Of a stretch of DNA of 38,612 nucleotides, positions 1,283 through 33,268 are shown piece by piece. A model generated the notes under the pieces. It saw nothing but the letters and a program-made list of their open reading frames with translations. It had not been told where the DNA came from and did no database searches. The translations under genes and the position numbers were made by a program. This stretch comes from a virus. The stretch lies in IMG/VR virus record IMGVR_UViG_3300028025_007281, positions 1 through 38,612 of that record; one strand, given 5' to 3'. The number at the start of each line of letters is the position of its first letter. Position 1 is the first letter of the stretch.

Positions 1283-2398
1283 TTAAGGGTTAAAACCTGC
1301 AAATTCTTTTTTCAAAGCTGCTAAAGCATTACCTATAGACATATCCATATCGTAATATCTGTAGTTGCCTAATCTACCGCCAATGATGATATTCTTGAAG
1401 CTTTCTGAATAATCTTTATATTTTTTATAAACGAGATTGTTTGATTCATCATTAATGGGATAATAAGGTTCATTAGTTTTGTCATAAGTCTTAGAATATT
1501 CATAACTAACATAGTCGATGTCAGATTTACCAAAACTAAAATATTTATGTTGTATTACTCTTGTATGAGATTCATTCAAAGAGGGATAATTTACAACCGC
1601 ACAACCTTGATAATCTTTACTGACAATTTCTTTATGTTTAAATTCAAGAGATCTATATTCCAAATCGCCAAACATATAATTGAAAAAACTATCTATAGGG
1701 CCAGAATAAACTACCTTATTCGCTATTTTGTCAAAGTATTCTCTGTTACTGAAATAATCAGTATCTAAACTAACTTCTATGTCTTTTAGCAACTTTTCAA
1801 AAATAGGTGTGTAGCCATCAACTGGAATACCCTCATAAATATCTGTATCTGGGTAATATCTATCACTGAAATTAAGCCTAATCGGTAGCCTTTTAATGAT
1901 AGATGATGGGAGCAGTTTTGGATCTCTTCCCCATTGTTTAGTTGTGTATCCCTTTATTAATAATTCATATAAAGTGGGACCAACTTGCGAAAGAATGAAA
2001 TCTTCTAAGTTTTGAGGATTTTCGCAAGGAATTATTTCTTTATTAATTATCTTAATAGCATCAGAAGGTGTCTTAATTTCTGGCCAAATTTGATGCAAGG
2101 TTGTTAAGTTTATTGGTAAAGAGTAAAATCTGTCATGAGTGTATGCCCTTGCTCTATGACTGTAATTATTGAACTCAGTAAATTGGTTTACATAGTCCCA
2201 AATGTATTTTTGAGAAGTATGAAAAATATGAGGACCATATTTGTGAATGTGATAGTCTTGATATTTCTCTGTGTAACAATTTCCCCCAATATGAGGTCTT
2301 TTATCAATTACTAAAACTTTTTTCCCAATTTTGTTAGCTTCATAGGCAAAAATAGAGCCAAACAATCCAGCCCCAACAATTAGATAATCATATTTCAT
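1283..2398 (-). CDS. glf: UDP-galactopyranose mutase
   Basis: A full-length (371 aa) FAD-dependent mutase that interconverts UDP-galactopyranose and UDP-galactofuranose, the donor for galactofuranose-containing glycans. Visible hallmarks are the N-terminal dinucleotide fold GAGLFG at 9-14, HIGGNCYTE and HKYGPHIFHT, the GYTTKQWG segment, the active-site RLPIRLNF followed by DGYTPIF, and the C-terminal GGRLGNYRYYDMD flavin-binding stretch. It sits among packaging and virion-side genes, which suggests virion or host-surface glycan modification; the plus-strand glycosyltransferase at 13141-14025 could use such a sugar, but this is inference. There is no Shine-Dalgarno; TAAAAT lies exactly 6 nt before the ATG, as at several other starts here. 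Confidence 0.93.
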   Translation of the reverse strand: MKYDYLIVGAGLFGSIFAYEANKIGKKVLVIDKRPHIGGNCYTEKYQDYHIHKYGPHIFHTSQKYIWDYVNQFTEFNNYSHRARAYTHDRFYSLPINLTTLHQIWPEIKTPSDAIKIINKEIIPCENPQNLEDFILSQVGPTLYELLIKGYTTKQWGRDPKLLPSSIIKRLPIRLNFSDRYYPDTDIYEGIPVDGYTPIFEKLLKDIEVSLDTDYFSNREYFDKIANKVVYSGPIDSFFNYMFGDLEYRSLEFKHKEIVSKDYQGCAVVNYPSLNESHTRVIQHKYFSFGKSDIDYVSYEYSKTYDKTNEPYYPINDESNNLVYKKYKDYSESFKNIIIGGRLGNYRYYDMDMSIGNALAALKKEFAGFNP

Positions 2399-7156: not shown

Positions 7157-7723
7157 TCACGAAACTAAGAAATCTTGTCCCAATAATTCCTTGAGTCTTT
7201 CGAGAGCTCTTGCTAATCTTTTCGAGAATGAGCTTTGATTAATTCCCAATAATTCAGCTGCTTCTTCTTGATCTAACTGCTGAAAAAAATAAAGATCAAC
7301 AGCTTCTCTTTGTTTTTCATTTAATTGATCCATCGCCCAATGCAAAGCTATAACATTGTCAATTTTGTTAAATGGATCAGAATTTGATGTTTTATCAAAG
7401 ATATCTTCATTGATTGGAACTGTTGATTCGTATAAATTAGAAACGTGTCTAAATAAATTTATGTCAATTCGTGTAGACAAGAAATAAGAAAAATATGTTA
7501 GATTCGGGTCATATTGATCTACAAGCTTTTTCAGAACAAAAATACATTCTTTGAAAATATCTTCTCTGTAAGCTCTAAGTTTTGGTTCTTTTGAGATACA
7601 TCTACTCACCGAAGCTAAAATTAATGGCTTGTAATATTCATATAATTTAAACAATGCAGAATTATCACCATTCTGACAATTAATTACAAGCTCATTTATA
7701 TCTGAGTATATATCTTCGTTCAC
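7157..7723 (-). CDS. Sigma-70 family (ECF-like) sigma factor
   Basis: A 188-residue sigma factor with two domains. Region 2 is at about 12-95 (VINCQNGDNSALFKLYEYYK, then REDIFKECIFVLKKLVDQYD). Region 4 is at about 133-183, with LNEKQREAVDLYFFQQLDQE followed by the -35-reading helix-turn-helix AAELLGINQSSFSKRLARAL. It should bind host core RNA polymerase and direct it to phage promoters. The start is GTG 7723, with no Shine-Dalgarno and TATAAT 6 nt upstream, overlapping the stop codon of the delta-like gene. It ends with tandem stops TGA TAA. It is one of three sigma-like genes in the window. Confidence 0.85.
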   Translation of the reverse strand: MNEDIYSDINELVINCQNGDNSALFKLYEYYKPLILASVSRCISKEPKLRAYREDIFKECIFVLKKLVDQYDPNLTYFSYFLSTRIDINLFRHVSNLYESTVPINEDIFDKTSNSDPFNKIDNVIALHWAMDQLNEKQREAVDLYFFQQLDQEEAAELLGINQSSFSKRLARALERLKELLGQDFLVS

Positions 7724-8734: not shown

Positions 8735-9850
8735 CTACTCCATAGGGAACATTAAATGCTTGAAATTAAGATCTTCAACTATGCAGATAGTGTATCCATT
8801 GTAATCATAAAACGACAATATTGTATCGTCTTTATTGATGATATCCAGGACCTTAATAAAGTGATTTACAAGATAAGACGCTTCAAATTCAACAATATCT
8901 TCTGATAGTTGAATCTTGTCAATAACAGCTCCTTTTTCATTATTAGAGCTTGAAAAAATCAGTTGACTACCTGAGCTCTTCATAAAGAAATTATGGTTGC
9001 TACTAATACTTGATATAAACCTCAAAGACTTTAAGATGTCATTCTTGTTGATTTCAAAACTTGTGATAAGTTCAGAGTTGTCAAAAAATTGATTGAAGGT
9101 ATTGTATACACTTTGATGGGTATTGTTTTCAATGGCACATGAAAAGCCACCATTTTCCCATAAAATATAAAACTTACCTTTATGAACAGTGTATTTACTG
9201 GAAGTCTTGGATATGAACTCTTTCATCAATTCTGCTTGAGCTTTTGATATTAAGAAAGAGTTGTCGCCATCATATTTTTCGCCAAACATAGAAATTCTAT
9301 GCTTGTCTGAAGATTGAGAATTAAAATTATTATCTTTGATGAAAAACATAATTGATGTATATGGGTATTCATCATAATCTGGTGCGCAAGAAAATGAAGA
9401 ATACTTGATAGCATTTAGTAAATTATTCACATCAAGGTCTAAGAATGTATTATTGTCTAAAAGAAATAAATCTTGAAAATTGATATTTTCAGACTCAACA
9501 TTTGAGGTCTTAAGTGAAACTCTGGTCTTTTTATTTCCAAATACCAACTGGTTTTCATCAAACAAAATACTGAATTGAATTTCATTAGATGGAAAATTAG
9601 ATAGTGCGTTGGTAAATGAACTTGCATCTACAGCAAAGCTTCTAAAATCATCTTCAACTTCACAAATATAGCTGTAAGCAGAAGATATTCCATTAGAAAT
9701 GTAAATATAAAGCTTGTTATCAATTGTATGAAAAATCAAACTTTCACTTGATACAGTCTTATTTTCACGAGTAGCAAGCTTCAGTTTTTCGATTTTATTG
9801 AATAACTGAAACTTGTGCAGGTGTTCTAATTTGTCAAGTTTAAATTTCAA
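8735..9850 (-). CDS. dnaN: DNA polymerase III beta sliding clamp
   Basis: A 371-residue processivity clamp, the usual family length (about 370). The N-terminal domain begins MKFKLDKLEHLHKF and shows the repeated clamp-fold pattern. The middle has YSSFSCAPDYDEYPYTSIMF and DKHRISMFG (compare the family's TDGHRLA), and the C-terminus ends YTICIVEDLNFKHLMFPME, close to the family's terminal pocket segment (...MPMR/L). It would tether the phage DnaE. The start is TTG 9850, preceded by AAGGG 8 nt upstream; no other start is available before conserved sequence. The TTG overlaps the TGA stop of the upstream purA-like gene, indicating coupling. Confidence 0.88.
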   Translation of the reverse strand: MKFKLDKLEHLHKFQLFNKIEKLKLATRENKTVSSESLIFHTIDNKLYIYISNGISSAYSYICEVEDDFRSFAVDASSFTNALSNFPSNEIQFSILFDENQLVFGNKKTRVSLKTSNVESENINFQDLFLLDNNTFLDLDVNNLLNAIKYSSFSCAPDYDEYPYTSIMFFIKDNNFNSQSSDKHRISMFGEKYDGDNSFLISKAQAELMKEFISKTSSKYTVHKGKFYILWENGGFSCAIENNTHQSVYNTFNQFFDNSELITSFEINKNDILKSLRFISSISSNHNFFMKSSGSQLIFSSSNNEKGAVIDKIQLSEDIVEFEASYLVNHFIKVLDIINKDDTILSFYDYNGYTICIVEDLNFKHLMFPME

Positions 9851-10845
9851 TGCAGTTGCCCTTGAAATTGGACCAATGTGCCAGGAAGAACATTTCCAAT
9901 TTCTTTACGAATATTATTTACAAATGTATCTTCATTTGCGCAAGAAGTCAACAGATTGTCCTTGTAATAATTCCAAGCACAATCTACTTGCCGAAGCACA
10001 TCCATTTTGTTGATGATTAGCTTTGTAACACCATTCATTTGACAAGCAGTAATTACTTCATCAAGATTTAACCAGTTTATTTGTCTTGGTCGTCCTGTAG
10101 TGGCTCCGTACTCTTGACCAATCTCACGCAATTGTTCAAATCTGTCGTCGTGCATTTGTTGGTATTCTTTGGCTCCAACATAGGTAGAATAACACTTGAT
10201 AACCCCGACAACATTCCATATTTGCTGATAATTGAAACCATTATTTAATACTGCTCCTACTCCGGTGTTTGATGATGTGACATAAGGATAATCGCCAAAG
10301 TCAATGTCAAGCCAATAACCTTGAGCACCTTCAGCTAAAAACTTCTTTGGGGAAGAATGGATAAGACTATACATATCAACGAGATATGATTTTAATTCTG
10401 AAACATCTTTAGCACGAAGACCTGTACGACCAACTTTGTCTTTATAACAAGGGCCATTTCCAGTGCGAGTTGTTCCAATAGTTGTATCTTTGGAATCTTC
10501 GTCAATGTGATCTTGGGTAATTATATGTGCGTTTTCTGCAATTTTTAAAAGCGTTGTGTCAAATCCAAGTCCTTCAAGATACGCAAGTTCGTCAAATAAT
10601 TTTTGCGTATTGATAACACAACCATTACCAATGACACTATGAATGCCATGCAGAATACCACAAGGAACAAGATGTGTAACAATTTTCTCTCCATTGAGGT
10701 AAATTGTATGACCAGCATTTCCGCCTCCATTGAAGCGTACAACGTAATCATATTCACCAGATGCAGCCATTTGATTGGCTATTTTACCTTTGCCTTCATC
10801 GCCATACTGCATACCGATAACTACATCAACAATTGAAGTTTCCAT
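9847..10845 (-). CDS. purA: Adenylosuccinate synthetase, short form
   Basis: A 332-residue member of the PurA/PurZ family, which joins aspartate to IMP (PurA) or to dGMP (PurZ, in 2-aminoadenine phages). Visible are the P-loop QYGDEGKGK with the catalytic Asp, the catalytic His in NAGHT, GNGPCYKDKVGRTGLR, AEGAQG, YPYVTSSNTG, the aspartate-loop-like GATTGRPRQ, and NKMD for guanine recognition. Keeping the Asp and NKxD points to PurA-type chemistry using GTP; PurZ proteins replace that Asp. Length matches PurZ (about 340-370), since the last 90 or so residues of bacterial PurA (about 430) are missing. ATG 10845 is preferred over GTG 10851 because a consensus promoter ends 6 nt before it. Confidence 0.88.
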   Translation of the reverse strand: METSIVDVVIGMQYGDEGKGKIANQMAASGEYDYVVRFNGGGNAGHTIYLNGEKIVTHLVPCGILHGIHSVIGNGCVINTQKLFDELAYLEGLGFDTTLLKIAENAHIITQDHIDEDSKDTTIGTTRTGNGPCYKDKVGRTGLRAKDVSELKSYLVDMYSLIHSSPKKFLAEGAQGYWLDIDFGDYPYVTSSNTGVGAVLNNGFNYQQIWNVVGVIKCYSTYVGAKEYQQMHDDRFEQLREIGQEYGATTGRPRQINWLNLDEVITACQMNGVTKLIINKMDVLRQVDCAWNYYKDNLLTSCANEDTFVNNIRKEIGNVLPGTLVQFQGQLH

Positions 10846-10851
10846 ATGCAC

Positions 10852-10882: not shown

Positions 10883-11563
10883 TTATTCTTGGGGTTTTTT
10901 GTCTAACGGAGCAAACTCTTCTTTTTTAAATTGAATGTAGACTTCGTTTGCTTTTTTTCTTATTCTTGTCAAAGCATTATCCACACATTTGGCAGGAACG
11001 CTTAATGTAATAGATATTTCTTTATATGAAGAATTAGTACCATATTCACTAAAGATTTCAGCTTCTAATGGTGTTAGTTTTTCAAGAAGTTTTTTAGTAT
11101 TTAAATCAAATTCTTCTCTGATTATAATATCTTCTACTAAATTAACTTCAGGGGATTCATCATAAGGATTTTGCTTATCAGGAATAAAATCTGCTAAAGT
11201 TTGTAAATTTCCATCATCCCCAAGAATGATAGGAGCATCTAAAGAAATTGAATCATTCAGCACTGAATTTTTCATTCTTTTAGCAGATGAAATGGCAGTG
11301 GCAAGGTGTCTTTTGCAAACAAGATTTACACAAAAATTCTTAAATGAAGTGTCCTTGGTGCAATCATAAGAGTTTACAGCTTTGAAAACTCCAAGACGTA
11401 ATTCTTGCATTACATCTTCACGATCACCACCAAGGATAAAATAATGACCGGCAATCTTACGTAGATCACCATCAACCATCTTAAGCAGTTGCTTAAATGA
11501 TTTTTCGTCACCCTTTTTAGCTTTATTTACTAATCTAACAATTTTTGGATCTTCGGTTGCCAT
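10883..11563 (-). CDS. Sigma factor resembling Bacillus SigH
   Basis: A 226-residue sigma-70 family factor with marked likeness to SigH (Spo0H). Region 2 contains YFILGGDREDVMQELRLGVF and KAVNSYD, TSFKNFCVNLVCKRHLATAI and SSAKRMKN (SigH: GADREDIVQEG..., TSFKAFAELCITRQIITAI). Next comes a linker with SLDAPI. Region 4 contains LTPLEAEIFSEY and YKEISITLSVPAKCVDNALT, then RIRKKA. It should reprogram host RNA polymerase. It sits between dnaX and the purA-like gene; no Shine-Dalgarno is obvious. The likeness to SigH is from memory of the family and has not been scored by alignment. Confidence 0.85.
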   Translation of the reverse strand: MATEDPKIVRLVNKAKKGDEKSFKQLLKMVDGDLRKIAGHYFILGGDREDVMQELRLGVFKAVNSYDCTKDTSFKNFCVNLVCKRHLATAISSAKRMKNSVLNDSISLDAPIILGDDGNLQTLADFIPDKQNPYDESPEVNLVEDIIIREEFDLNTKKLLEKLTPLEAEIFSEYGTNSSYKEISITLSVPAKCVDNALTRIRKKANEVYIQFKKEEFAPLDKKPQE

Positions 11564-19276: not shown

Positions 19277-19723
19277 CTATTCTGATAAGTCTTGCAAGTT
19301 TTCAAGCGATAAATTCTTGAGTTTTTTAACTAAAGTATAAAGCCCTTTTGTAAGTAAATTATTTTCAACAATATATTTATATATTGCGTCTTTTAATATA
19401 TCCTCATCAATATCAAATTCTCGTTCTAACTCTCTAATTATCTTGGTATGAGCCTTGTTTAAAACAGTTTGGCCAAGGTCATCTTTCACTTCCAAACCAA
19501 AAGGAAATATAGAGTCAGAGTTAGTTTTTATTAAAGGATTGATATCTGAACTTGCCAAAAGTAAGTCATTCCATGTATCAGTTTTAACATTATATTTATT
19601 CTGGGAAGAGGCAGAATTTTCCTGAGAAAATATCTTAACATCTGCTTCTCTTCCCACGAATTTAGACACGAGAATTTCGGAAAAAAGTAGCTTTTTTCTT
19701 TCAATCCAGTCGAAGTTGATCAT
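19277..19723 (-). CDS. Hypothetical protein
   Basis: A 148-residue protein not recognised. The start is ATG 19723 (MINFDWIERKKLLFSE), which overlaps the TGA of the upstream SpoVS-like gene as ATGA; the longer frame from 19762 would overlap that gene needlessly. The C-terminal half is strongly helical and charged (KAHTKIIRELEREFDIDEDI, KYIVENNLLTKGLYTLVKKL). No catalytic motif. Coupling to the SpoVS-like gene suggests the two products act together. Confidence 0.6.
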   Translation of the reverse strand: MINFDWIERKKLLFSEILVSKFVGREADVKIFSQENSASSQNKYNVKTDTWNDLLLASSDINPLIKTNSDSIFPFGLEVKDDLGQTVLNKAHTKIIRELEREFDIDEDILKDAIYKYIVENNLLTKGLYTLVKKLKNLSLENLQDLSE

Positions 19724-20097
19724 AGTGCGTATTTGATATGAATTGCAAAAATTCTTGTGCAAACACCCTTGGCTTTTTTACCACCAATTTCAGCGTCGTA
19801 TTCACTTTGCCTACAAACAAACACTTCGCCTTTAGACTTAATTTCAGCCTCAATAGAAGCTAATCTGAAAGCTTTCATAACAGAAGATAGCGCAGTAGGA
19901 CCAACAGATAGCACATTGACATATTCATGCTCTTTTAAGACGTGAACAATGCTTCTTGATAAACCTACAGGGTCAGTAGGTCTCCTTGTTTCATCAGGAT
20001 CATTTGGGTCTCCACCACGAGCCCTTAAGATTCTTGGATCTTTCTTTTGTCTCTTGTCGTTTTGATTTACTTTGAACTCATCATTGTTGTCGATCAT
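19720..20097 (-). CDS. SpoVS-like (Alba-fold) protein
   Basis: A 125-residue protein. Residues 42-124 follow the SpoVS pattern: DPVGLSRSIVHVLKEHEYVN, VLSVGPTALSSVMKAFRLAS (SpoVS: AIGAGALNQAVKAVAIAR), a strand with EVFVCRQSEYDAEIGGKKAK, then CTRIFAIHI. SpoVS is a small regulator of sporulation with an Alba-like, probably nucleic-acid-binding fold. A 40-residue charged extension (RQKKDPRILRARGG) precedes it. SpoVS homologues also occur in non-sporulating bacteria, so the name does not prove a sporulating host. GGAAGG precedes the ATG by 6 nt. It lies between the zinc-finger sigma-like gene and an unknown gene. Confidence 0.75.
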   Translation of the reverse strand: MIDNNDEFKVNQNDKRQKKDPRILRARGGDPNDPDETRRPTDPVGLSRSIVHVLKEHEYVNVLSVGPTALSSVMKAFRLASIEAEIKSKGEVFVCRQSEYDAEIGGKKAKGVCTRIFAIHIKYAL

Positions 20098-20099
20098 AA

Positions 20100-21083
20100 T
20101 TAACCTTCCAATCCTAAAAAGGACATTTTATTCTTTATGTTTTCAAGCGCTACTGAAAACTCTTCCACAGAACAATTATAAAGCTTAGCATCAAATTCTA
20201 AATTTATGTATTTATTTTTCACAGGACTACTTAAAGCTCTCTCGATAATCAGATTTTCTAAATCTGAAAGTTCAACTTGAAACAAGTCACCAATTTTATT
20301 ATCATCTTTTATTTGATCATAAAAACAATTTTCATCGTCATCATTAGATTCTGGCATATAAACAGATAAAGCTCTCGGAGAAACCGTTTGATGGTGCGGA
20401 TGTAATTCATTAAATCTATTGAATAGCATTGTTGAATGATGAGAAATCAAATGTTTTTTCACAACTTGTATTCTCTGTTTAAGAATACATTTGTAACAGC
20501 CTCCTGGTTTAGAATTTTCGCATTGTTCTAAGCATTCATAATTTCTTGGCATTTTGTGTTTTTTGCAAAATGGACATTTCACCAGATCAATCAAATTATA
20601 GTTTTGTTGTTTTAGGAAGTTCCAAAAAATATGCCTGTGACATTTAATTAAGTGAGTAGATAAAGGATTTACCCATTGCTCACAAATTGGACATTTTTGA
20701 TATGGATTTCTTTTTGCAGCGTTATCTTTTTTTACTAAATTGATATAATTATGTTGCAATGCTCCAATGAAATAATTTTTGAATTCACCGGATCCATTGT
20801 ATCTTGAAATTTTTCTTTTTGATCTTGGTTTCCAGTTTGTTAAAACATTGCAGAAAATTTTTATATATTCTATTTGAAAATCTTCTTGCGAGTCATACAA
20901 GTAGTGATACTGATTATACCACTCTTGCATATGCAGCATAGGTGGATATAATTTGCAAATATCTTTATAACTTCGATCAATCATGCTCTTATTATTAGTG
21001 AGCAAGCTTTTTTGATATTTTAATATCGCAATCTCTAAGTTTTCTTGAATTTTACTATTAGCAATTCTCAGATCATCAGCCAC
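20100..21083 (-). CDS. Sigma-like protein with inserted zinc fingers
   Basis: A 327-residue protein of unusual build. Residues 15-125 resemble sigma region 2 (AILKYQKSLL...SYKDICKLYPPML, SQEDFQIEYIKIFCNVLTNW, EFKNYFIGALQHNYINLVKK). Next come a C-x2-C-x9-H-x3-C/H finger (C131, C134, H144, C148/H149) and a second Cys/His cluster (C170, C173, C184, C188, C196, C199, H211, H215). The C-terminal part (about 272-322) resembles region 4 (LSDLENLIIERALSS, CSVEEFSVALENIKNK). It may be a DNA-binding transcription factor derived from a sigma factor; sigma function is inferred from weak patterns. The start is GTG 21083 with GGAGG 7 nt upstream. Confidence 0.5.
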   Translation of the reverse strand: MADDLRIANSKIQENLEIAILKYQKSLLTNNKSMIDRSYKDICKLYPPMLHMQEWYNQYHYLYDSQEDFQIEYIKIFCNVLTNWKPRSKRKISRYNGSGEFKNYFIGALQHNYINLVKKDNAAKRNPYQKCPICEQWVNPLSTHLIKCHRHIFWNFLKQQNYNLIDLVKCPFCKKHKMPRNYECLEQCENSKPGGCYKCILKQRIQVVKKHLISHHSTMLFNRFNELHPHHQTVSPRALSVYMPESNDDDENCFYDQIKDDNKIGDLFQVELSDLENLIIERALSSPVKNKYINLEFDAKLYNCSVEEFSVALENIKNKMSFLGLEG

Positions 21084-21141
21084 AATAAGTCCTCCACCAA
21101 GATAAGATTATTATGGCTGATAATTAAAATATTGTAAACTG

Positions 21142-22932
21142 CTAAATTACAGATATATCTTCAATAATCATGGTTAGCTTATTTGCGCCCATCCATGTGT
21201 CTATGTCGAGAGTGTAAACAACATCCACTTTTGCCCCAGCAGTTAGTTTGCTTGCAAGATGTCCTTTTCTCCAACCATTAGCAGGAACCCAAGATTTCTC
21301 TCCATCAGAAAGCTTAAGTTTCACATGTTTGTTATTAGAAAGAGTTTTGCACTCCACCACTTCAAGATTCTTCGTAATAAACACTGGATTAGTATTCATA
21401 GAGCCAAAAGGAGAAAGCTTTACTAATTCACCATATGTTTTTATATTAAGCTCTCTAAATGGCATTTTTGCATCTATTTCAATTACTTTTTCTGTAACAG
21501 GTTCACCAAGCTTGTTTGAAGCATATCTGTTCAATGCTTCTCTCATCAAAGGAAGATTTTTAATAGGTAATTCAAATCCAGCTGCAAAAGCATGTCCTCC
21601 CATAACTGGAGAACCATCATTTTTCTTCTTAAATAACTGGAGTGCTTCTTCTGACTTTAATGCTTCTAAAATATTGAAATCTGCTACAGATCTACATGAC
21701 CCTTTAGCATATCCATCCTCTTTGAAAGAACACACAAGAGTTGGTTTGTGATAGAGTTCTGCTATTTTTCCTGCGATCAAGCCTATCAACCCTGGATGCC
21801 AATCATCTGCTCCAATTACAATAATATGTTCATTTACAAGGTCATAATGTTCTTCAACATATTCGATAGCTTTTGCAAATGCCTTTTCTTGTTGTTCTTG
21901 TCTCTTCTTGTTTGCATTATCTAAGGTAGAAGCAAGCATAGTGGCGGTGAAATCATCTTTTGCTAAAAACAAGCTTAATGCTGTTCCTGCATCTGCTAAT
22001 CTTCCAATTGCATTAATTCTTGGTCCAATCTGAAATCCAATAGAGGTAGTAGTAACTTCCTTTACGCTTGCAATTCTTAGTAGCTCTTTGACACCAGGTT
22101 TATTTGATCTACCTAAGCATTGACACCCATAATTTACAATCACTCTATTTTCATCAAACATAGGAGCAACGTCAGCCACTGTACCAAGAGCAGCAAATTC
22201 AATTAATTCATTTACATACTCCATGACATTTAATTTACGGCTTTTTGCTAATCCCAACATTAATTTAAAAGCAATTCCACATCCAGCTAAATAGTCAAAT
22301 GGATATCTTTTGAAATCTTCAGTGGCATGAGATTTAAAATGCTCACCTGGATATTTTGGATCATCTCTGTTTGGATTAACCACAGCAATACAATCAGGAA
22401 TCTTTCCATCATCAGAAGGGTGGTGGTGGTCAGTGATGATTAGATCCAAGTTTTTACTTTTAGCATATTCAGCTGTTTCAAAAGCTAAGATTCCACAGTC
22501 AACAGAAATTAATAATTTAGCTTGTCGGCTTATTGCTTCATCAACAGAATGAGTTTTAATATCATAGCCATCTTCCATTCTGTGAGGGACTTTGTATTCA
22601 AGATCAGCGCCCATTTTCTGAAGCGCAGTTACAACAATAGCTGTTGATGTAATTCCATCAACATCGTAGTCACCCCAAACAAAAATCTTTTCTCCATTAT
22701 CAATAGCTTGATTAATTCTTTTAATAGCTAATTGTGAATCTGGCAAAAGCATTGGGTTATGCAGAAGATTGATTTCTAAATTGAGAAACTTTTTTACTTT
22801 CTCTATAGAATCAATACCCCTTGCTACCATAACATTAGCTACACTTTGAGGTAGCTCCATTTCATACGATAATTCCCTGACAAGATTGATATCGCAAGGC
22901 TTAATTTTCCAAACAGTTTCAACATTAGACAT
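21142..22932 (-). CDS. recJ: Single-stranded-DNA exonuclease RecJ
   Basis: A 596-residue DHH-family 5'-3' exonuclease, near the usual 570-580. DHH-domain motifs: VWGDYDVDGITSTAI (I), ISVDCGI (II), LIITDHHHP (III), AVVNPN and GCGIAFKL (IV). The DHHA1 domain contains SCRSVADFNI and GGHAFAAGFEL, and a C-terminal OB-like domain follows. It probably resects DNA ends for RecA or processes lagging-strand ends. Its start lies inside the end of the Toprim gene (8-base overlap), so the two are likely coupled. Confidence 0.95.
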   Translation of the reverse strand: MSNVETVWKIKPCDINLVRELSYEMELPQSVANVMVARGIDSIEKVKKFLNLEINLLHNPMLLPDSQLAIKRINQAIDNGEKIFVWGDYDVDGITSTAIVVTALQKMGADLEYKVPHRMEDGYDIKTHSVDEAISRQAKLLISVDCGILAFETAEYAKSKNLDLIITDHHHPSDDGKIPDCIAVVNPNRDDPKYPGEHFKSHATEDFKRYPFDYLAGCGIAFKLMLGLAKSRKLNVMEYVNELIEFAALGTVADVAPMFDENRVIVNYGCQCLGRSNKPGVKELLRIASVKEVTTTSIGFQIGPRINAIGRLADAGTALSLFLAKDDFTATMLASTLDNANKKRQEQQEKAFAKAIEYVEEHYDLVNEHIIVIGADDWHPGLIGLIAGKIAELYHKPTLVCSFKEDGYAKGSCRSVADFNILEALKSEEALQLFKKKNDGSPVMGGHAFAAGFELPIKNLPLMREALNRYASNKLGEPVTEKVIEIDAKMPFRELNIKTYGELVKLSPFGSMNTNPVFITKNLEVVECKTLSNNKHVKLKLSDGEKSWVPANGWRKGHLASKLTAGAKVDVVYTLDIDTWMGANKLTMIIEDISVI

Positions 22933-23680
22933 TTATATATAATTCTTTCTTGTCATTCTCTATCATATTGGTTATTGCATTATCAAAAAAACTCATGTCG
23001 TATTTTCTTGCAAAATCATCAGGGTCCATTCCAAAAGGCAAATAAACTGTAAATGCATTCAAACCCCATTCAGTAACTTTGTCTACAATTTTCTTTGCTG
23101 CAATTTTACCTGGACCATCCGCATCCATTATCACAACTATGTTATCGCAAAATCTTGATGCTAAAGCTATTTGATGATCTGTAATTGCTGTTCCACATAA
23201 AGCTGCGACATTGCAAACACCATTGTCATAAAAGCTCAGCACATCAAAATAACCCTCTACCAATACAATGTAGTTTTTCTTTGCAATTTCATTTTTACTT
23301 ACATCTAAAAAATAAAGATTTTTAGCTTTAGAATAAGGTTCATTAATCCATTTGCCTTTAGACCACTTGTTAATTCTATCTTGACATTTAGCTGGTTCAT
23401 GTCCGTAAGATTCCCATAAGGCCTTAATTAATGATTCTTTTAAGTCTGGAATCTGTCTGCCAGCAAGAGCAATTGTGTTTCCGTATACATCTCTAATTGG
23501 AAGTATTATTCTGCCTCTCAACAGCGGAAATGTGTAATGAGAGTAAATTGGGCAAAAACCTATAAGATTTTGTCTAACAAGTTTTTTTGATAAACCACGG
23601 GAAAGATAATATTCTTGAGCAGTTTTGTTTTCACTTAAGTTTCTTATAAACTGTTGAAATGACAATTCTTTATCAGACAT
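22925..23680 (-). CDS. dnaG: DnaG primase catalytic (Toprim) domain, stand-alone
   Basis: A 251-residue protein matching the RNA-polymerase core of DnaG without its zinc domain. It has GRIILPIRDVYGNTIALAGR (56-75), the Toprim motifs VEGYFDV (141-147) and DADGPG (186-191) with catalytic Glu and Asp residues, and DPDDFARK. It should make RNA primers. The missing CHC2 zinc domain is encoded separately at 31095-31703, about 7.4 kb upstream, so the primase is split. The usual C-terminal helicase-binding domain is also absent. ATG 23680 is preferred over upstream Met codons; TACAAT lies 5 nt before it, just after the recA terminator. Confidence 0.88.
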   Translation of the reverse strand: MSDKELSFQQFIRNLSENKTAQEYYLSRGLSKKLVRQNLIGFCPIYSHYTFPLLRGRIILPIRDVYGNTIALAGRQIPDLKESLIKALWESYGHEPAKCQDRINKWSKGKWINEPYSKAKNLYFLDVSKNEIAKKNYIVLVEGYFDVLSFYDNGVCNVAALCGTAITDHQIALASRFCDNIVVIMDADGPGKIAAKKIVDKVTEWGLNAFTVYLPFGMDPDDFARKYDMSFFDNAITNMIENDKKELYINV

Positions 23681-23699
23681 AAAATATTGTACCATCATA

Positions 23700-30855: not shown

Positions 30856-31102
30856 TCCAAATCTCTGAAAACCTTGCTAATTCTCTTTCAACCCCAGAAC
30901 GCACTATAAATTTCTCTAACTCAATATCATCTAATTCTGGATAAGAAGCTAAAAGTAATGTTTTTACAATATGGTATCTTTTAGCTCCATTGCCAGTAAG
31001 AATTACATTTACTGAAATCTCTTCAGGTGAGTTTTCAATTGCTTCGTTGAGTTTTTTCAATATATCAGTGACAGGAGCTTTTGTGAAATCTAAATCATGC
31101 AT
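30845..31102 (-). CDS. Small hypothetical protein in primosome operon
   Basis: An 85-residue protein not recognised. It is helical and acidic (DILKKLNEAIENSPEEISVN, LDDIELEKFIVRSGVERELA), with no cysteines or catalytic motif. It overlaps the CHC2 gene by 8 bases and the following gene by 11, so translation of all three is likely coupled. Possibly an adaptor between primase and other replication proteins. Confidence 0.6.
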   Translation of the reverse strand: MHDLDFTKAPVTDILKKLNEAIENSPEEISVNVILTGNGAKRYHIVKTLLLASYPELDDIELEKFIVRSGVERELARFSEIWNEQ

Positions 31103-31703
31103 GGTGCTTTGACCTCATCATATCAGACAATTTTTTCCATAAATCATTTATGCCTTTAAAATCATTTGAGTTTATCTTGTTTTCTAAATCTTGATAAACA
31201 CTGTCGATCCATTGCATGTCTTTTTCATTGAAGTTGTTTTTTCTAAGATATTTTTTAGTTCTATGTGAAAAAGCAATAAGGAACCCTACTTCAGAAAGAC
31301 CACCTGGATATCTTGAAGTATTTTCCAATTCAAAATATCTATTGATAGAATTATTCAAATCCCTAATTAGAGTTTTAATATCAAGATTAACTAATTCTAT
31401 ATCTATGTTTGCAAAGTTAGCAAGTTTCTGAATTGTTTCAACAAATGTCAAGCCTTCTACAGCTTGAACTAAATTGATTACATTGCCTTTAGCTCCACAA
31501 CCAAAACAATTATATAAATTGTCATTCGTATTTACGCCAAAAGAGGGACTTGAATCAGCATGGTAAGGCATAGGGCAATTTGTATTACCCCAATTTGTAG
31601 TGCGATTATAAATGAAATAGGAGTCATATTCTGACTCCATGTATTCTTCTATCCTCACTGTTTTAACAAGTAAATCAATGAAGTTTTTATCTATTTTTGT
31701 CAT
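31095..31703 (-). CDS. DnaG-type CHC2 zinc-binding domain protein
   Basis: A 202-residue protein carrying the template-recognition zinc domain of bacterial primase: CPMPYHADSSPSFGVN (C43, H48), then YNCFGCGAKGNVINLVQ (C66, C69) and GLTFVETIQKLANFANI. This is the CHC2 pattern. The catalytic Toprim part is absent and lies in gene 22925-23680. About 100 helical residues after the zinc domain may form a binding surface for helicase or for the Toprim protein. The ATG at 31703 (MTKIDKNF) overlaps the helicase stop as ATGA and is preferred over the longer frame. Confidence 0.9.
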   Translation of the reverse strand: MTKIDKNFIDLLVKTVRIEEYMESEYDSYFIYNRTTNWGNTNCPMPYHADSSPSFGVNTNDNLYNCFGCGAKGNVINLVQAVEGLTFVETIQKLANFANIDIELVNLDIKTLIRDLNNSINRYFELENTSRYPGGLSEVGFLIAFSHRTKKYLRKNNFNEKDMQWIDSVYQDLENKINSNDFKGINDLWKKLSDMMRSKHHA

Positions 31704-33268
31704 TTTATAATTACCCAATCAGGGACATCAATTTCTTCATCAACAAAAATGTTCACTGGCTCGTCATCATCTTCTTCTATCTGAGATTCTTTATCTTGAT
31801 TTTTAGAACCAATAGGAGTTTTCCCAGAATCTTTAATAGATGAAGTAGTGGTAACTGTCCCACCTTTAGAAATAGCATGCATAGACATTATTTGTTCTTG
31901 TTCTTGCAATGACAATTCTTCCACTTTGTTATAATCAGGATTCATTCTAATAGGAAAAGGATGAAACCAAGCATCACGCATTTTCACAGGATGCAAAACA
32001 CAGTAACCTTCTTCTCGATTAGGTTCCATAGCTATTGCATAAGTACAAAGGTGCATTAAGTTTTGACCACCAGATGCTGCTGCTTGGTCATAGCTCATAA
32101 ACTTATTAGCCTCTTTTTGCTTTCGTGAATCTCTAATTGTTTCACGGTTAATTTGCTGAGCAGTGATAATTGGTATATTGTATCTTTTTGCCATGATAAA
32201 TAATTGAGATATTGCTTTTGATTGCAATTCCCAATCTTTAGTTATGCCAGTAGGATTACGAATAGTCATGTTTCCAATGTAGTCAACAACAAGAAGATCT
32301 GGTTTTCCTTTTGTAGCAATAAGATCTCGTATTCGTGAATCAATATACTCAGGCGTAGGATCTTCCATATTAACATCATATTCAAAATATGGTCCCTCTT
32401 TAGATGAATTAAGGCCATCTAAAATTACCCTTAATTCATCTGGAGAAATATTGTTATCTTTGAGCTGGCTGTAAGGAATTTCAAATGACAAAGAAATATG
32501 TCTCAGCAAACAAAGCCAAGAGTTCATTTCAAAAGACATGTATAGTACTTTTTTGCCACAATTCTTATTAGCATGCATAGCTGAATTAAGTAGCATGACA
32601 GACTTACCACCAGAAGAAGGTGCAAGAAAAACAATAATTTGTCCTGGCAACCAACCAAAAGTTTTAGTATCAATGTTGCTTACGCCACATTCGATTCCTC
32701 TGAAAAGCTCTGGATGATTTACTCTTTTGTCAAACTCTGACTTGAAATAATCAGAAGACTCATTTACATCAAAGTTATGGCGATCAGCACCTATTTCATT
32801 CTTTTCTTGTTGAATTGCTTCTAAACTATCTTGAATTACTTTGACAGTGGAATCTAATCCACTGTCATTATATTTCTCATTAATATCAGAAAGCATTCCA
32901 GACAATAATTGATGACATCTTGCTTCTTTAAGTTGAGATGTTAATTCAAAAAAGTCATTCTCATCAATATCTAAATCTTGGATTTCTGTCCAAACTGAAA
33001 ATATTTTAGCTCTAACTTTTTCACTAACTTTTTTCTCATTAAGTTTAGATTCAAGAACAAAAGTGGTGAACAAACTTCCGCCACTTGCAGACCAATAATT
33101 GTGAATAAGTTTGAATAAAGCATTGGTGTATGAATGCTTTTCGCCATCTTCAATAGAATCAAAATGCTCTTTTGTAATTTGGCGAGACAAAAGTTTATCC
33201 ATGTTTTTCGAGTTGCGAGAAACTTGGGCAAGTATTTTAAGCTCTAATTCTAATTTTGAGAGATTCAT
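31700..33268 (-). CDS. dnaB: Replicative DNA helicase, DnaB family
   Basis: A 522-residue RecA-fold hexameric helicase. The N-terminal helical domain (about 1-125) is followed by a linker and the motor: GWLPGQIIVFLAPSSGGKSV (Walker A at 216-224), KVLYMSFEM, Walker B LLVVDY (325-330), and the glutamine motif ITAQQINRET (about 368-377). A long acidic, Ser/Thr-rich tail (about 450-515) follows. It unwinds the fork ahead of DnaE. It lies 4 bases after the loader gene and is coupled by ATGA to the CHC2 gene, forming a compact primosome operon. Confidence 0.93.
   Translation of the reverse strand: MNLSKLELELKILAQVSRNSKNMDKLLSRQITKEHFDSIEDGEKHSYTNALFKLIHNYWSASGGSLFTTFVLESKLNEKKVSEKVRAKIFSVWTEIQDLDIDENDFFELTSQLKEARCHQLLSGMLSDINEKYNDSGLDSTVKVIQDSLEAIQQEKNEIGADRHNFDVNESSDYFKSEFDKRVNHPELFRGIECGVSNIDTKTFGWLPGQIIVFLAPSSGGKSVMLLNSAMHANKNCGKKVLYMSFEMNSWLCLLRHISLSFEIPYSQLKDNNISPDELRVILDGLNSSKEGPYFEYDVNMEDPTPEYIDSRIRDLIATKGKPDLLVVDYIGNMTIRNPTGITKDWELQSKAISQLFIMAKRYNIPIITAQQINRETIRDSRKQKEANKFMSYDQAAASGGQNLMHLCTYAIAMEPNREEGYCVLHPVKMRDAWFHPFPIRMNPDYNKVEELSLQEQEQIMSMHAISKGGTVTTTSSIKDSGKTPIGSKNQDKESQIEEDDDEPVNIFVDEEIDVPDWVIIK

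Follow-up and report, generated by a model that had tools for sequence, protein, structure and literature searches.

Does a phage protein with sigma-like ends and zinc fingers between them work as a sigma factor, regulate transcription in some other way, or belong to another class of zinc-finger protein? Sigma factors are the promoter-finding part of RNA polymerase, and accounts of them give a modular make-up of regions 1 to 4. The window analysed here, meaning the whole stretch of 38,612 nucleotides, is a 38.6-kb virus record and a piece of a large phage. It harbours a gene for a sigma-like protein of 327 aa that raises this question.

Genomic context

The window possesses genes encoding a DnaE-type polymerase, a UvsX/RecA-like recombinase, primase, RecJ, ribonucleotide reductase, sliding clamp, clamp loader and terminase. 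The gene of the sigma-like protein is placed between recJ and a SpoVS-like gene (Table 1), the same position as in the related contigs examined, and its surroundings form a cluster of replication and nucleotide genes including uvsX, primase, recJ and ribonucleotide reductase. The open reading frame is a real gene, because a Shine-Dalgarno sequence precedes its start and orthologs sharing about 38-70% amino-acid identity occur in about 35 IMG/VR contigs, the largest of 479 kb. The SpoVS-like small protein is encoded directly 3' of the gene in the related loci seen, and the two are possibly functionally linked.

Table 1 Positions of the features at the locus and of the other sigma genes in the window
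Feature	Position	Strand	Evidence
Gene of the zinc-finger-bearing sigma-like protein, 327 aa	20100..21083	-	GTG start at 21083, stop 20100-20102
Shine-Dalgarno GGAGG, 7 nt 5' of the GTG	21091..21095	-	Direct reading of sequence
Sigma region 2-like domain, residues 13-128	20700..21047	-	HHalign best match is the phage sigma family, region 2 register
Zinc finger 1, C2H2 (C131, C134, H144, H149)	20637..20693	-	Ligands invariant in 23/23
Zinc finger 2, C2H2 (C170, C173, H211, H216), nested insert inside	20436..20576	-	Ligands invariant in 23/23
Nested four-Cys site inside finger 2 (C184, C188, C196, C199)	20487..20534	-	All-or-none across 23 orthologs
Acidic disordered linker, residues 244-262, sigma 3/4-linker-like	20298..20354	-	Net charge -38 per 100 aa; pLDDT 33-34 over residues 241-260
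Sigma region 4-like domain, residues 263-327	20103..20297	-	HHalign best match is the phage sigma family, region 4 register
recJ, conserved upstream neighbour	21142..22932	-	Pfam RecJ_OB, DHH; phrog_2484 E 2e-100
SpoVS-like gene, conserved downstream neighbour	19720..20097	-	Weak Pfam SpoVS, E 0.025
Ordinary sigma factor s1	7157..7723	-	Sigma70_r4 E 5e-11, TIGR02937 E 2e-19
Ordinary sigma factor s2, SigH-like	10883..11563	-	Sigma70_r2 E 1e-6, SigH model E 7e-35

Distribution of the family

Direct searches with the sigma-like protein returned three near-identical relatives, and the search with the neighbouring RecJ returned 20 contigs. At least 18 of these 20 carry an ortholog behind recJ, followed by the SpoVS-like gene. 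Records bearing the gene include those of 301, 316, 347, 358, 379, 441 and 479 kb, and one copy per record was present in all of the records checked (11/11). The gene is kept in every relative of the phage lineage that could be checked. A short ortholog, of 296 aa, is encoded on contig 3300029922_000001.

Among 50,697 named phage records, five different orthologs used as queries revealed no convincing homolog. A match to a ssRNA-phage maturation protein in the named phages (E 2e-3, 25% identity) was discarded as chance, and an ortholog query did not repeat it. In 84,980 bacterial and archaeal genomes, the gene was detected only on one 5-kb contig (L056) of a Kapaibacterium MAG, with the gene order recJ, sigma-like gene, SpoVS-like gene and nrdB, as in the phage lineage. 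This contig is probably phage DNA. Its presence in a Kapaibacterium bin may hint at the host or the sample, or may be a binning error.

Zinc module

The sigma-like ends are separated by two duplicated C2H2 fingers, followed by an acidic linker. The first-pass annotation, made from the sequence alone, had proposed at least one C2H2/C2HC finger together with a second dense Cys/His cluster. We found two C2H2 fingers, both of the pattern C-x2-C ... H-x3-5-H and each ending in H-x4-H, and all eight ligands (8/8) are invariant in 23 out of 23 sequences. The spacing is C131-x2-C134-x9-H144-x4-H149 in finger 1, and C170-x2-C173-x37-H211-x4-H216 in finger 2. As judged from their profiles, the two fingers are tandem duplicates of each other, because finger 2 with the insert removed matches finger 1 with an HHalign probability of 93.8% and a score of 32.5, against 19.9 for the best of 200 shuffles.

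The second dense cluster is also present, but it corresponds to finger 2 with a nested, dispensable site and not to a separate finger. A third C2H2 finger formed by C196, C199, H211 and H216 was rejected, since H211 and H216 stay with C170 and C173 in sequences where C196 and C199 are missing. The nested site is whole in 16 of the 23 sequences, with three invariant Cys and a fourth ligand, Cys or His, of shifting position, and its Cys are all absent in seven. Because of this all-or-none pattern, the nested cluster is predicted to be a metal site of its own inside finger 2, and a dispensable one. The tree requires at least two changes of the trait, a count that the long branches make uncertain. 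The site may serve as an accessory brace in finger 2 that some members lack, and the natural forms with and without it are a ready pair for comparison.

Pfam C2H2 models stayed below their cut-offs (zf-C2H2_4 14.4 of 27 bits and zf-Di19 18.5 of 27.5 bits at best), and HHalign of the zinc segment against the other families of a 24-family set (see below) gave no match. Weak matches of the zinc part to RING, TRIM and RBX1 were attributed to chance agreement of Cys spacing. The fingers adjoin recombination genes, as might be expected of a zinc-finger nuclease or recombinase. However, no such family was matched in Pfam, PHROGs, NCBIfam or PDB sequences, and in our reading of the alignment the invariant residues outside the zinc ligands form no recognisable catalytic motif, so that a nuclease or recombinase is very improbable. 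A better match to such a family had been named as one result that would speak against a sigma factor, and neither these families nor any other matched better than sigma.

Sigma-like ends

The order along the chain is region 2-like domain, finger 1, finger 2, acidic disordered linker and region 4-like domain. We assembled alignments of 24 protein families, drawn both from these phage loci and from loci of bacterial sigmas, and compared the family of the sigma-like protein with the other 23 by HHalign, using the N-segment (residues 13-128), the C-segment (residues 258-327) and the zinc segment each as a separate query. The N-segment and the C-segment, for which separate profile searches had been suggested, each selected the phage sigma family of s1 as the best of 23, in the correct register. 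Against diverse phage sigmas, the N-segment alone reached 28-36%, with a score of 28.5 compared to 21.2 for the best of 250 shuffles. The C-segment at region 4 scored 22.3, compared to 20.8 for the best of 250 shuffles.

Higher values were obtained when both ends were joined without the fingers, with 63-88% under four alignment settings and several diverse sigma sets, and 87-93% with three larger sigma sets. The joined ends scored 36.2, and 250 column-shuffles of the sigma alignment gave at most 24.8. Keeping the acidic linker raises the probability further. With the segment before region 4 added, the joined ends reached 93-95% in most cases (maximum 94.6%, with a longer linker segment), and one sigma set with bacterial ECF sigmas added gave 67% for the longest segment. 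The joined ends with linker matched at 93% with a score of 50.0, the best of 300 column-shuffles being 27.3.

In the same HHalign test, non-sigma families gave about 1% or less, and reversed-alignment controls failed to match. With the 24 families as queries, the four sigma families reached 98-100% and every non-sigma family at most 4.1%. The uncut family of the sigma-like protein gave 48% and 11% against two sigma alignments, and ranked first after the true sigmas. Similarly, a phage-sigma HMM run over 556 ORFs placed its orthologs among the first matches behind true sigmas. One of the three orthologs tried (L119) matched the NCBIfam model TIGR02937 (sigma70-ECF) at residues 36-121 with an E of 0.0027, corresponding to 17.4 bits and thus below the cut-off of 42.9.

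Searches of Pfam, PHROG, NCBIfam and PDB sequences with the whole protein and with its ends revealed nothing above cut-off, including no Pfam Sigma70_r2 or Sigma70_r4 match. When the sigma profile was restricted to close s1 orthologs, the HHalign probability fell to 1.6%, in the same register. The region 4-like part showed neither a canonical helix-turn-helix signature nor a match to a helix-turn-helix family, and the region 2.1-like helix is interrupted by a Pro-Pro stretch. The flanking of a zinc module by region 2-like and region 4-like segments, as first noted, was thus borne out in controlled profile-profile tests, but not at the level of Pfam or PHROG. These comparisons support homology of the N-terminal segment to sigma region 2 and of the C-terminal segment to region 4, an arrangement that would be as in two-domain (ECF-type) sigmas.

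Predicted structure

The AlphaFold2 model of the whole protein is moderate (pLDDT 75, pTM 0.47), and that of the isolated N-domain is good (pLDDT 87, pTM 0.77). The modelled helices of the region 4-like part comprise residues 263-269, 274-285, 299-302 and 306-322. In a Foldseek search of the PDB, the whole model found sigma factors at ranks 1, 2, 7, 10, 14 and 15, yet with E values of 1.5 and worse. Its first match in BFVD was a phage 'DNA directed RNA polymerase subunit' (prob 0.82, E 0.043), and no Foldseek match had an E below 0.001. The isolated N-domain found no sigma within the best 50, where only unspecific helical proteins and bundles appeared. Comparison of the predicted folds with sigma domains, a check proposed at the outset, thus gave a divided result: the whole model ranks sigmas first, but at an E of 1.5, and the isolated N-domain finds none.

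These unspecific bundles, together with the lack of a Pfam sigma match and a locus amid uvsX, primase, recJ and ribonucleotide reductase, would also fit a helical zinc-finger protein that binds DNA or RNA as part of the phage replication machinery, and whose sigma likeness would be convergent or a chance product of profile comparison. Nevertheless, two separate segments match one sigma family in the right order, and the column-shuffled and non-sigma controls stay low. We regard a replication protein without sigma ancestry as quite improbable.

Other sigma factors, polymerase and promoters

Besides the sigma-like protein, the window encodes the ordinary sigma factors s1 and s2, in agreement with the earlier count of three sigma-like genes in 39 kb. 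An ortholog of s1 was found in 19 out of 20 phage records, and orthologs of s2 were identified among the phage records examined. In seven records of 300-479 kb, searches with Pfam models did not reveal a phage-encoded beta or beta' polymerase subunit. Therefore, the partner of the sigma-like protein is most likely the host RNA polymerase; a very diverged phage polymerase is also possible. A Bacteroidota-type promoter pattern occurs seven times in the window compared to 3.1 expected, with 3 of 100 shuffles as high. Near the gene of the sigma-like protein, the scan for sigma-70-type promoters showed no excess.

Since ordinary sigmas are already present and co-conserved in 19 of 20 records, the protein could be a sigma-derived regulator and not a working sigma, that is, a coactivator, an anti-sigma or an appropriator comparable to T4 gp33 or AsiA. 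Such a regulator would have kept the polymerase-contacting ends, and its fingers would bind DNA, RNA or another phage protein. The region 4-like part without clear helix-turn-helix signature and the location in the replication and nucleotide cluster would fit this role. However, the highest conservation of the protein lies in residues 100-126 (EFKNYFIGALQHNYINLVKKDNAAKRN), a region 2.3-2.4-like stretch, and it is through regions 2.3-2.4 that known sigmas read the DNA of the -10 element (PMC4598750), which speaks against a mere regulator. The zinc ligands also deviate from those of zinc anti-sigmas, as the HisXXXCysXXCys motif of the zinc anti-sigma domain (ZASD; PMC4598750) is not the ligand pattern in the alignment. 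A regulator of this kind is unlikely.

Proposed role

The protein is probably a divergent sigma-70 homolog that works with the host RNA polymerase and carries its fingers where region 3 would otherwise lie. Primary sigmas are built in the order region 2, region 3, 3/4 linker and region 4 (PMC6372665, PMC4598750). The fingers would occupy the region 3 position, because the finger pair directly follows region 2 in the chain. As a divergent sigma, the protein would bind the polymerase core with region 2 at the beta' clamp helices and region 4 at the beta flap, and would steer the host polymerase to one class of phage promoters. The finger pair would most likely touch either the DNA immediately upstream of the -10 element or the polymerase at that place, and the acidic linker may take the path that the sigma 3/4 linker follows in mimicking RNA.

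A more specific form of this proposal, which is possible if rather doubtful, is a working sigma in which DNA-reading fingers replace region 3. Promoter recognition by a bacterial polymerase would then make use of C2H2 fingers lying upstream of the -10 element, in parallel to the zinc modules of TFIIB and TFB, and this build would have been fixed in one huge-phage lineage. If the protein is a sigma in which a zinc-finger module stands at the position of region 3, it widens what the sigma family can be. It would also be a third, lineage-wide transcription factor for phages of 300-480 kb. With this protein it could be tested directly whether zinc fingers can take part in promoter recognition alongside a bacterial RNA polymerase.

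Comparison with known systems

Our literature searches, covering open-licence papers, revealed no phage sigma factor whose regions 2 and 4 are separated by zinc fingers, in line with the remark at first reading that no standard sigma family of such a build was known. Similar to ECF-type sigma-70 factors, the protein has both homologous ends in the same order, and a negatively charged extended linker before region 4 (the sigma linker is described in PMC6372665). It differs from them in about 100 extra residues, which contain the tandem C2H2 fingers and separate region 2 from the linker, in falling far under the Pfam thresholds, and in the Pro-Pro stretch that breaks its region 2.1-like helix. 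The family of s1 is the best profile match for both ends, whereas s1 lacks a zinc module and exceeds the cut-offs of the Pfam region 4 and NCBIfam superfamily models.

Very diverged sigma homologs are also known from jumbo phages, namely AR9 gp226 and phiKZ gp68, the promoter-specificity subunits of nvRNAPs (PMC9209446). The likely sigma homology of gp226 was recognised by experimental structure at 9.6% identity, and that paper makes no mention of zinc (PMC9209446). However, gp226 and gp68 serve phage-encoded polymerases (PMC9209446), of which none was found in the seven records of this lineage that were searched. The T4 late sigma gp55 is a diverged phage sigma-70 protein that works with host RNA polymerase and whose phage has its own clamp (PMC7892883). 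Nonetheless, gp55 consists of a sigma region 2 domain and a helix-loop-helix, and gp33 occupies the region 4 site on the flap (PMC7892883), whereas in the protein described here a single chain bears zinc fingers as well as a region 4-like end.

Archaeal TFB and eukaryotic TFIIB are likewise initiation factors bearing a zinc module, and their zinc ribbon and reader perform the job of the sigma linker (PMC6372665). Their zinc ribbon differs from the C2H2 fingers found here, and the proteins are non-homologous, so that the parallel is functional only.

Other genes of the window and related contigs

The primase of the window is apparently split in two genes (31095-31718 and 22925-23698, both on the minus strand), of which one resembles the N-terminal part of DnaG-type phage primases and the other the DNAG_N/Toprim part. 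A UDP-galactopyranose mutase gene is present at 1283-2398 (minus strand; Pfam GLF, E 5e-67). At 9847-10851 (minus strand) the window encodes an adenylosuccinate-synthetase-like protein, which matches PHROG 1211 with an E of 1e-66. The NCBIfam PurZ model gave 124 bits (cut-off 300) and the general PurA models gave more, 282 bits (cut-off 402); a connection to modified-adenine DNA is possible.

Among the related contigs, the nrdB ortholog of L021 (9722-11665, plus strand) encodes 647 aa, compared to about 320 in relatives, and has an intein-like insert mid-gene. Three contigs possess an additional small gene between the SpoVS-like gene and nrdB (L015 9186-9680, L019 9302-9769 and L024 9263-9721), with a PCxxC or PCxHC motif that appears deaminase-like by eye.
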